A program made the translations under genes and the position numbers. From contig NZ_LR594487.1 of the NCBI RefSeq assembly GCF_901686465.1, positions 310,001 through 374,000 of the forward strand: a DNA stretch of 64,000 bases, given 5' to 3'. Position 1 is the first letter of the stretch. Each line of letters opens with the position of its first letter. The notes beneath the pieces are model-generated. The model made no database searches. It saw only the letters and a list, made by a program, of their open reading frames with translations, and was not told the origin of the DNA. Below are positions 50,757 to 54,906 of the stretch, in pieces. The stretch is from Halorubrum sp. DM2. GTDB lineage: Archaea; Halobacteriota; Halobacteria; Halobacteriales; Haloferacaceae.

Positions 50757-53045
50757 TCAGTCGTCCCCGACGATCCCCTCCGCGACCGCCATGTCGTCGA
50801 CCGACGGGTCGTCCTCGGACTGCCGGAGGACGAACCGCTTGCGGATCAGGTCGGCGGTGTAGATGGCGGTCCCGATGATGATCAGCGTGTCGCCCGGGAG
50901 CCGCGCCCAGAACAGCGTCTGGACGAGGCCGCCGTTGTAGAACTCGAGGCTGCGCGCGGCGGCGTACCCCTCCGTGAACGCGACGTCGAGCTGGAGGAAA
51001 CCGACCGGGAGCAGCGAGACCCCGACCATCAGCGCGAGGCCGACGTTCCAGCACCAGAACGACGCCCGAAGCCACGAGCCGTCCCAGCGGTCGGGGTCGA
51101 TCGATAGCTGGAGCATGTACGCGACCATGCCGAGCGCGAGGAAGCCGAACGCGCCGAACATCGCGGCGTGGGCGTGGCCGACGGTGAGGTACGTGCCGTG
51201 TTCGTAGTAGTTGATCAGCGGGAGGTTGATGAAGAAGCCGAGGACGCCGGCCCCGACGAAGTTCCAGATCCCGCTGGCGACGATGAACATGAACGGGAGC
51301 TTGTAGGGGAAGCCGCTCGTCTCCGTCATCGCGCGGTACTGCCCGATCGCCTCGTAGAGGATGAAGATGAGCGGCAGCAGCTCCAGCGTCGAGAAGACGC
51401 TCCCGATCGGCACCCAGTAGTCCGGCATCCCGATCCACCAGTAGTGGTGCGAGACGCCGATGACGCCCGTCCCCATCACTAAGAGTGCCTGAAGCATCAC
51501 CGCCTTCTCCGCGCTGCGGCGCGAGAGCAGGTTCATCGAGACGAGCGTCAGCCCGATGATCGCGACGATGAAGAACTCGAACGCGCCCTCGACCCACATG
51601 TGGACGACCCACCACCGCCAGAACTCGGTGACGGCGATGTTCGTCGACGGCGTGAACATGAAGCCGGCGACGAAAAGCAGGGTGATAGAGCCGCCCGCGT
51701 AGAGGATCATGTGCGCGAGCCCGTAGGCCGGCTCGCGGTCGAGCAGCGGCTTGAGCCCGCGGATCGCGAGGACCGCCCAGAGGACGAACCCGGCGAGCAG
51801 GCCGAACTGCCACACTTTCCCGACTTCGAGGTACTCCAAGCCCTCGTTACCGAGAAGCCACCAGAGTTCGCCGGGGAGGTAGCCGTTCGCGCCGAGCCAG
51901 ATACCGGCCATCCCGCCGACCACGACGGTCACCAGCGCGCCGAGGAGGACGTTCACGTACGTCCCCTGTCGCTTCGGCTCGTGACCCGTCAACAGCGGCG
52001 GGAGGAACAGTCCCGCCCCCAGCCACGTCGACGCGATCCAGAGGATTCCCAGATCGATGTGCCACGTCTTCGCGATGGAGAACGGGAGGAGTTGGAGGAT
52101 GTGGACCCCGAAGATCTGCTCGATCCCGAAGAACCCGGCCCGTTCGATGTAGAAGTGCGCCAGCAGGCCGCCAAGCAACACCTGCGCGAGGAACAGTCCC
52201 GCGGCGATGGGAACAAATCGGAGCGCGGCGCGCTGGCTCGGGAAGACGCTCACGTCGCCCGGCTTCGGGACCGAGATCCCCTCCGCGGACGGCTCGGGGA
52301 GCTTCACCGACTTGTACAGCAGGATCGCCGCGCCGGCGGCACCGACGAGCAGCACCATCGCGATCACGCTCCAGATCATCGCGGAGCCGGTCGCGTCGTT
52401 GCCGGCCCCCGGCTGGTAGGGCCACTCGTTGGTGTACGAGTGGTCGGCGTTCGGCCGGTCGGTGTGCGAGAACCACGCCGTCCACAGCGCGAAGTCGGCG
52501 AACGACTCGGCCTCCTCGGTCGAGTCGATCATCCCGACCGGGACGCCGCGGTCGTGGTCGCCCTCGTGGTAGCGCTCGACGTACGTCTCGCGCACCTGCT
52601 CGTGGGCGTACGCCTCCGCGGCGGAGTACTCGACGACGCCGCTCCCGTCGTGAGCGGTGTCGAGTTCGTCGCGCACCAGCGCGTCGATCCGCGACTGCTC
52701 GCCGGAGTCGAGCGCGTCGTACGCCGCGCCGTACTCGGCGTCGGCGTAGTACTCGCGCATGTGTTGGGTCTTCAGCTCCAGCGTCTCGGCGGTGTAGTCC
52801 TCGCCGTAGTACGCCCCGTTGCCGAGGATCGACCCGTGGTTCATCAGCCCGTACTGCTGGAACGCCTCCTTCCCGTCTTGGACGTCGGCCCCCGTCACGA
52901 TCGTCTCGCCGTCGGGACCGACGACCTCGTCCGGGATCGGCGGAGCCTCCTGATACGCGAACCACGCCCCGGCTCCCATCACGACCAGATTCAACAGGAA
53001 CGCCGCGACGATGACCTTCCCGATCGTCTTGCGAGTGAGCCTCAT
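50757..53045 (-). CDS. norZ: Quinol-dependent nitric oxide reductase (qNOR)
   Basis: 762 residues. The N-terminal part has one membrane span, a long external domain with GLMNHGSILGNGAYYGEDYTA, and a second span, the fused cytochrome-c-like portion of qNOR without haem-c CxxCH. The catalytic part has the heme/FeB histidines in the HILQLLPFS, WRWWVVHMWVEGAFEF and HHYWWIG/GHAHAAMFGA segments. Reduces NO to N2O with quinol. Box A (minus-strand gctaaacgc, about 53079) is about 34 bases upstream, and a palindrome sits directly behind it. Divergent from a MoaD-like gene. Confidence 0.94.
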   Translation of the reverse strand: MRLTRKTIGKVIVAAFLLNLVVMGAGAWFAYQEAPPIPDEVVGPDGETIVTGADVQDGKEAFQQYGLMNHGSILGNGAYYGEDYTAETLELKTQHMREYYADAEYGAAYDALDSGEQSRIDALVRDELDTAHDGSGVVEYSAAEAYAHEQVRETYVERYHEGDHDRGVPVGMIDSTEEAESFADFALWTAWFSHTDRPNADHSYTNEWPYQPGAGNDATGSAMIWSVIAMVLLVGAAGAAILLYKSVKLPEPSAEGISVPKPGDVSVFPSQRAALRFVPIAAGLFLAQVLLGGLLAHFYIERAGFFGIEQIFGVHILQLLPFSIAKTWHIDLGILWIASTWLGAGLFLPPLLTGHEPKRQGTYVNVLLGALVTVVVGGMAGIWLGANGYLPGELWWLLGNEGLEYLEVGKVWQFGLLAGFVLWAVLAIRGLKPLLDREPAYGLAHMILYAGGSITLLFVAGFMFTPSTNIAVTEFWRWWVVHMWVEGAFEFFIVAIIGLTLVSMNLLSRRSAEKAVMLQALLVMGTGVIGVSHHYWWIGMPDYWVPIGSVFSTLELLPLIFILYEAIGQYRAMTETSGFPYKLPFMFIVASGIWNFVGAGVLGFFINLPLINYYEHGTYLTVGHAHAAMFGAFGFLALGMVAYMLQLSIDPDRWDGSWLRASFWCWNVGLALMVGVSLLPVGFLQLDVAFTEGYAAARSLEFYNGGLVQTLFWARLPGDTLIIIGTAIYTADLIRKRFVLRQSEDDPSVDDMAVAEGIVGDD

Positions 53046-53086
53046 CGGGCGAGTGTACCGCCGAGACGCCCTATGCGTTTAGCGGC

Positions 53087-53096
53087 AACATGTTCG
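53087..53096. promoter_or_regulatory. Palindrome in the norZ promoter
   Basis: aacatgtt (53087-53094) lies just upstream of the norZ box A. Read towards norZ it is CGAACATGTTGC, differing from the second palindrome (53238-53249) in one half-site. I recall CGAA-N4-TTCG as the motif proposed for the haloarchaeal denitrification activator NarO; this copy matches half of it. Confidence 0.5.
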
Positions 53097-53237: not shown

Positions 53238-53249
53238 CGAACATGTTCG
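53238..53249. promoter_or_regulatory. Exact CGAA-N4-TTCG palindrome before the MoaD-like gene
   Basis: cgaacatgttcg is a perfect 12-base palindrome, 8-10 bases upstream of a plausible box A (gcttaccc, 53257-53264), which is itself 27 bases before the ATG at 53288. It matches exactly the CGAA-N4-TTCG motif that I recall for NarO-controlled promoters in Haloferax. The second, imperfect copy faces norZ. Confidence 0.6.
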
Positions 53250-53287: not shown

Positions 53288-53734
53288 ATGGCTCAGACCA
53301 GCGAGATGGCCGAGCAGACGGCCGAAACGGAGTCCGTCTCGGGAGAGGCGGGGGCGACCGCGACCGAGGCGGAGACGACCGTCTCGGTCCGGTGTACCGG
53401 CCACGTGCGCACGGAACTCGGGGAGTACGAGTTCGAGTACACCTTCGAGGGCGACACGCTCCGCGCGTTCCTCGACGAACTGTTCGAGGATTACCCCGAA
53501 CTCCAGGACATGCTGATCGCGGAGTCCGAGTCCGATGCCACCCACAGCGGGTGGGCCCCGACGCCGGAGGAGCTACCCGGCACGTGGTCGAAGAATCCGG
53601 TCGGCGAACAGACCATCGCGTACGCCCGGATCCTCGTGAACGGCCACTTCAACGAGAACGAGAACGGCTTCGACACGGAACTGGAAGAGGGCGATCGGGT
53701 CGCGCTGGTCTACCCGTTCATGTTCTGCTGTTGA
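53288..53734 (+). CDS. MoaD/ThiS-like ubiquitin-fold protein ending in Cys-Cys
   Basis: 148 residues. After an acidic leader (about 30 residues), VSVRCTGHVRTELGEYEF, GDTLRAFLDELFEDYPEL and ARILVNGHFNENENGF followed by LEEGDRVALVYPF show the beta-grasp order of MoaD/ThiS sulfur carriers. A large insertion lies at about 80-110. The C-terminus is PFMFCC, where sulfur carriers end in Gly-Gly, so ATP activation is unlikely. Shares a palindromic box with divergent norZ. A role in NO reductase assembly or protection is inference. Confidence 0.75.
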   Translation: MAQTSEMAEQTAETESVSGEAGATATEAETTVSVRCTGHVRTELGEYEFEYTFEGDTLRAFLDELFEDYPELQDMLIAESESDATHSGWAPTPEELPGTWSKNPVGEQTIAYARILVNGHFNENENGFDTELEEGDRVALVYPFMFCC

Positions 53735-54707: not shown

Positions 54708-54780
54708 TGCGGGGGAAGGGATTCGAACCTCAGTCACTCCGCTCGCTGCGCTCGCTCCGTTCCCTGCTTCGAATCCCTTC
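54708..54780 (-). repeat. Truncated tRNA-Leu 3' copy with inverted T-arm piece
   Basis: Bases 54708-54729 are identical to 54822-54843, the T-arm/acceptor end of tRNA-Leu. Thirteen bases of it (54715-54727) recur as an inverted copy at 54768-54780, so the segment can fold into a hairpin whose loop is GC-rich (cgctcgctgcgctcgct). A further 9-bp inverted repeat (cgctgtcgc/gcgacagcg) is at 54791-54820. No other tRNA parts are present. Confidence 0.7.
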
Positions 54781-54821
54781 TCGTCCGAACGCTGTCGCTC
54801 GCGATGTGCTCGCGACAGCGA

Positions 54822-54906
54822 TGCGGGGGAAGGGATTCGAACCCTCGAACCTCTACAGGAGCGGATCTTAAGTCCGCCGCTTTTGGCCAGGCTCAGCCAC
54901 CCCCGC
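54822..54906 (-). tRNA. tRNA-Leu (anticodon TAA)
   Basis: An 85-base type II cloverleaf: acceptor GCGGGGG with CCCCCGC, D-arm, anticodon stem GCGGA/TCCGC around loop CTTAAGA (anticodon TAA), a long variable arm (TCCTGTAGAGGT), and T-arm GAGGG/CCCTT with TTCGAAT. Discriminator A; no CCA encoded; no intron. Decodes TTA. A truncated copy of its 3' end lies 93 bases downstream. Confidence 0.95.

Follow-up and report, generated by a model that had tools for sequence, protein, structure and literature searches.

The window, the whole 64-kb stretch of DNA analysed here, contains a divergent gene pair in which norZ lies opposite a short gene whose product ends in two cysteines, with a palindrome in the intergenic region. 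The features of the locus are as follows.

50757 to 53045, minus strand: norZ, the divergent neighbour, encoding a quinol-type nitric oxide reductase of 762 aa (PF22085, E 1.4e-52; COX1, E 1.7e-48)
53085 to 53096, minus strand: palindrome copy degenerate at 2 positions, about 51 bp upstream of the norZ ATG (spacing from coordinates)
53238 to 53249, no strand assigned: operator palindrome CGAACATGTTCG, an exact CGAA-N4-TTCG identical to the nor/nosZ motif in PMC10062603, with its 5' end exactly 50 bp upstream of the ATG of the Cys-tailed gene
53288 to 53734, plus strand: Cys-tailed MoaD/SAMP-like protein of 148 aa, probably arCOG00539 (from the ORF, family profiles and AlphaFold)
53393 to 53395, plus strand: codon of Cys36, the residue that closes strand 1; 80% of homologues have Cys here, and it covaries with Cys148 (homologue alignment)
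53402 to 53404, plus strand: codon of His39 in a CTGH motif, His in 94% (homologue alignment)
53528 to 53611, plus strand: family-specific insert before strand 3, limits approximate (alignment)
53726 to 53728, plus strand: codon of the penultimate Cys147, in the alignment column of the second diglycine Gly (homologue alignment)
53729 to 53731, plus strand: codon of Cys148, the C-terminal residue, Cys in 118 of 145 (homologue alignment)

The genome is haloarchaeal, and members of Halorubrum are its nearest relatives among the genomes compared. The norZ product is a qNOR, with the cytochrome-c-like and COX1 domains both present. The Cys-tailed gene reads from an ATG at 53288, a start supported by its fixed 50-bp spacing to a conserved operator, to a stop at 53732 to 53734, and its product ends Tyr-Pro-Phe-Met-Phe-Cys-Cys. 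The first-pass annotation took it for a beta-grasp protein ending in PFMFCC instead of Gly-Gly, with an insertion of about 30 residues before the last strands, and both points are borne out. The 148-aa protein scores 27.7 bits against Pfam ThiS (PF02597), over the 22.5-bit cut-off, and falls under the curated thresholds of the TIGR01687 MoaD profile (36.2 bits against 49.5) and the SAMP1 NCBIfam profile (32.6 bits against 60). In an AlphaFold model built with 68 homologues the beta-grasp core is confident, with block pLDDT values of 95-97 for residues 31-70 and 91-98 for residues 121-140; the insert reaches 62-84, and tail residues 145-148 lie below 50 and are disordered. MoaD and SAMP1 are the top structural matches, CysO and Urm1 are also among the nearest, and MoaD, SAMP1 and CysO share the fold of the model at Z 10-13. 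The protein thus has a MoaD-type beta-grasp fold, and its insert is about 27 residues long relative to GG-ending ubiquitin-like proteins (Ubls).

To set the register of the tail, we compared it with two GG-ending Ubls of the same genome and with a non-halobacterial archaeal MoaD. The last strand (G-D-R/E-hhhh-P) and tail align with these without gaps, and Cys147 falls in the column of the second glycine. In fold and last strand the family therefore resembles MoaD, SAMP1 and CysO, but it differs from them in lacking the diglycine, with a cysteine at the second-Gly position and one residue beyond it, in carrying the insert, and in its neighbours and promoter. Cys-X ends 146 of 154 unique homologues and GG ends none of them, so the CC end of the window protein is not chance; nor does any homologue have a GG within its tail or close to it. 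The eight homologues that end otherwise comprise five frameshifted or cut sequences (L090, L107, L108, L109 and L117) and three second copies that accompany a normal one (L110, L111 and L112). The tail consensus is P-F-[MIL]-[FY]-C-X, and of 145 full-length copies 118 have C in the last place, 13 have L, 8 V, 4 F, and 1 each R and Y. The CC end noted in the first-pass annotation is thus conserved in its penultimate cysteine but not as a pair. Judged from the alignment, what is conserved is a single penultimate Cys147 at the reactive place of the fold, followed by one further residue. A hidden GG, or trimming of the QbsE type, was considered and is ruled out, there being no GG ahead of the tail. 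Tandem second copies occur beside a normal CC copy in two genomes (L110 in G166, L111 in G116); they end in FLFAP, have lost the cysteine and have shortened inserts.

Elsewhere in the protein, family cysteines occur at positions 36, 116 (38%), 147 and 148 only. Cys36 covaries with Cys148 across the 145 full-length copies (odds ratio 9.3, kinship ignored). Within the insert Trp89, Asn103, Pro104 and Gly106 are invariant, as is Arg114 just past it; conserved cysteines are absent from the insert, which rules out a ferredoxin-like cluster there. Strands 1 and 5 are parallel neighbours in the beta-grasp fold, and Cys36 and His39 could therefore reach the base of the tail.

The double-cysteine end has been noticed before. 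Makarova and Koonin (2010) recorded a CC C-terminal motif, without a function, for the halobacterial arCOG00539 (PMC2948915). The window protein's family is probably this one, both being halobacterial MoaD-like beta-grasp proteins with a double-Cys end. The published description contains the CC motif; we did not find the operator, the link to denitrification, the insert or an analysis of the penultimate cysteine there. In the literature searched we found no other paper naming arCOG00539, no mention of a MoaD-like protein in papers on haloarchaeal denitrification, and no experiment on, or function for, any family member. The CC end was thus already known; the operator, the register of the penultimate cysteine and the neighbourhood appear to be new.

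The family is confined to Halobacteria, where homologues are present in 245 of 391 genomes (about 60%) and 58 of 86 genera. Elsewhere in the phylum, 295 genomes yielded three weak MoaD-like matches only, of which the one examined (G553) is a GG-ending MoaD without the insert, and a bacterial search by genome-contig scan and plasmid collection returned haloarchaeal matches alone. Across the 391 Halobacteria genomes norZ is present in 207, and the two genes occur together in 163, where 130 would be expected (odds ratio 4.6, kinship ignored), though 82 of the 245 carriers lack norZ. In a set of 194 genomes, whose composition was inferred from the matches listed, the Cys-tailed gene is associated with norZ at an odds ratio of 6.8 and with nirK at 3.0, kinship again ignored. 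Of the 124 carriers in this set 27 have neither norZ nor nirK, and 12 genomes have both but not the Cys-tailed gene, so the gene is neither required by denitrification nor limited to it. A search of the 194 genomes for NarG gave matches in 18, a single query sequence being too narrow.

A firmer link to anaerobic metabolism is provided by the promoter. The palindrome CGAACATGTTCG is letter for letter the nor/nosZ motif of Haloferax mediterranei, whose mutation lowered nor and nosZ promoter activity (PMC10062603), and in Haloferax volcanii the CGAA-N4-TTCG palindrome precedes denitrification genes as well as ahbD (PMC5746218). It is the sole exact copy in the window, where 2.6 would be expected by chance; a single copy therefore proves nothing alone, and the weight lies in the family-wide pattern. 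An exact palindrome lies upstream of 132 of 145 homologues and, among the 128 in which the ATG could be placed, its distance from the ATG is exactly 50 bp in 88, 49-51 bp in 106 and 44-59 bp in 123. Of the 32 loci in which no partner gene was recognised, 26 also have it at 49-50 bp. In 105 non-Halorubrum promoters, which were chosen for an exact copy and in which the eight fixed bases are consequently invariant by selection, the flanking positions carry mostly 0.1-0.4 bit, close to random, and the four central bases differ between copies, so the conservation of the palindrome does not reflect plain relatedness. The whole genome holds 196 exact copies in 3.45 Mb, or about 1.5% per 270 bp; a null of 5.8% obtained from random stretches is too high, because such stretches could include the site itself. 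Before three other Ubl genes of the same genome the exact palindrome is absent, the best match having two mismatches. The motif also precedes 103 of 1061 other genes (9.7%), which look to be largely recurrent neighbours from the regulon (c4, CGCGG, c3, DUF2249, HTH_10 and cupin).

Given a published operator, an identical motif and a spacing fixed across the family, membership of the Cys-tailed gene in the CGAA-N4-TTCG anaerobic/denitrification regulon is a strong prediction, and one that we consider very probably correct. The gene has the operator of the haloarchaeal nor/nir/nos/ahbD regulon (PMC5746218, PMC10062603) at a similar place in its promoter; the difference is that promoter activity has been measured for some of the published genes, whereas the Cys-tailed gene is linked to them by its motif. 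Where the neighbour is divergent, the palindrome may serve both genes. In the same genome, at about 251.9-252.6 kb, one palindrome is common to a CGCGG-family gene and a divergent DUF2249 gene, whose ATG it precedes by exactly 50 bp, and these two genes are likely further members of the regulon. Further strict copies stand before a halocyanin-like gene, just before a ferredoxin gene and just before an Htur_1727-TIGR04347 gene pair.

The neighbourhood of the gene is broader than the window would suggest. Where both positions are listed (58 genomes), norZ lies within 1.5 kb in 22, namely 20 Halorubrum and two Halobaculum, and in 100 non-Halorubrum loci, which were drawn largely from the best matches and over-represent some genera, it lies within 6 kb in 3. 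The first-pass annotation had placed the protein beside NO reductase as a possible redox switch. As regards that link, the non-random co-occurrence, the adjacency in Halorubrum and two Halobaculum, and the nor/nosZ operator stand; a special tie to NO reductase does not, given the carriers without norZ and the loci outside Halorubrum. A special partnership with NorZ as the general role is accordingly rejected, the family being wider than norZ and mostly unlinked to it outside Halorubrum. The norZ neighbourhood alone would have suggested too narrow a role. Within 3 kb in 51 of the 100 non-Halorubrum loci, representing 20 of 48 genera, are instead AhbC/AhbD-like radical-SAM genes (TIGR04347/TIGR04053, whose searches cross-hit); a CGCGG protein is near in 40, the membrane protein c4 in 34 and UbaA in 1. 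Aldehyde ferredoxin oxidoreductase (AOR) is nearby in a smaller set of loci. On Halobaculum plasmids the gene order is TIGR04347, Cys-tailed gene, norZ and, further on, nirK; others have TIGR04347, Cys-tailed gene and narGH, or the Cys-tailed gene directly before narGH. In Halobacterium sp. TGN-42-S1 a CL-ending member directly precedes UbaA, with AOR nearby. Recurrent partners without a Pfam or NCBIfam match are c3 (about 200 aa, soluble) and the membrane proteins c4 and c6. The palindrome precedes c4 in 34 of 35 cases, and this copy is often an intergenic one common to c4 and the Cys-tailed gene. A COX-type protein, HFX_2180, is encoded near nirK in Haloferax mediterranei (PMC7754194), and c4 and c6 are suspected to be its relatives.

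Overall, we believe that a branch of MoaD/SAMP beta-grasp proteins specific to Halobacteria has given up E1/thiocarboxylate chemistry, and consider this loss almost certain; an E1 cannot be expected to use a bulky Cys tail as it uses GG. With an invariant thiol standing where a carrier fold has its glycine, the simplest reading is that the thiol replaces the thiocarboxylate. The flexible tail would then carry Cys147 where the glycine of MoaD becomes a thiocarboxylate, followed by one free residue. If the operator acts here as it does in the published promoters, the protein would be produced during oxygen-free respiration of N-oxides or other acceptors. Most probably it would dock onto a partner in the manner of MoaD, bring Cys147, as a thiol or persulfide, into the active site of that partner, and so contribute to building or protecting a cofactor (heme, Mo/W-pterin or Fe-S) of anaerobic respiratory enzymes. 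Regulon and neighbours together suggest cofactor supply for such enzymes, although AOR adjoins the gene in some loci and no one target enzyme stands out. On balance we lean towards an E1-independent, thiol-based accessory protein of anaerobic respiration, leaving its thiol chemistry broad. Its more specific form, in which Cys147 carries sulfur or another thiol-bound group without activation to serve cofactor assembly for anaerobic respiration, the encoded cysteine replacing the thiocarboxylate made by E1, is put forward tentatively.

DsrC and TusE are small proteins with a conserved penultimate cysteine on a flexible C-terminal arm, which works in the active site of a partner. Their fold differs from that of the window protein, and the likeness would be an analogy of working rather than of membership.

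A chaperone for heme, another tetrapyrrole or metal is a possible but doubtful alternative, which we rate about level with sulfur carriage by Cys147. Here the insert would hold the ligand, Cys147 together with Cys36, His39 and Cys148 would ligate metal, and the cargo would be delivered to anaerobic respiratory enzymes. Other beta-grasp proteins have ligand-binding inserts at the same pre-strand-3 position (PMC1949818), and Cys36 covaries with Cys148, kinship ignored. The frequent AhbC/AhbD-like neighbours point the same way, as does ahbD of Haloferax volcanii (HVO_2144), which lies near nirK and norB and is needed for anaerobic growth, a need that heme rescues (PMC5746218). Against this, about one homologue in five lacks Cys36 and about one in five lacks Cys148, and none of the known site patterns for heme or metal is complete throughout the family.

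Nor do we favour a redox or NO switch, which seems unlikely. In such a switch Cys147, often with Cys148 or Cys36, would be oxidised or S-nitrosated during denitrification and would alter binding to NorZ or a regulator. Three possible thiols are present in 104 of 145 members, the operator is common to the nor/nir/nos promoters and norZ adjoins the gene in Halorubrum and two Halobaculum, but only one cysteine is invariant, 27 of 124 carriers have neither norZ nor nirK, and norZ is seldom adjacent outside Halorubrum. An ordinary E1-activated MoaD or SAMP whose GG has drifted, or whose end is trimmed to a usable form, is consistent with the fold and family scores and with UbaA as the next gene in Halobacterium sp. 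TGN-42-S1, but is highly improbable and largely refuted by the alignment: GG is missing from every tail, Cys147 is conserved and has not drifted, the chain can also end in L, V or F, three other Ubls of the genome carry GG, and UbaA is near in 1 of 100 loci.

Haloferax offers a direct route into the function of the thiol-based accessory protein that we favour. The orthologues in this genus (G040, G190 and G266, assigned to Haloferax because the SAMP1 is almost the same as the H. volcanii protein of known structure) end in CV or CL and keep the operator, so the essential cysteine is testable there alone, in a genetically tractable genus. Should Cys147 do the work of the thiocarboxylate, the family would illustrate how a ubiquitin-like carrier manages without its E1; should it instead be a ligand of heme or metal, the family would supply a missing factor of archaeal denitrification.

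Two minor observations concern the same genome. Its three other Ubls (890784, 235215 and 1352197) extend 1-4 residues past the diglycine (GGA, GGSVGR and GGR), whereas Haloferax SAMP1 ends in GG, so a protease, of the JAMM type for example, may have to trim these three before they can be activated. Downstream of the Cys-tailed gene, a tRNA-Leu(taa) gene lies on the minus strand at 54822-54906, and its 3'-end words GGGGGAAGGGATTCGAACC recur at about 54711 as a partial duplicate (region 54710-54906).
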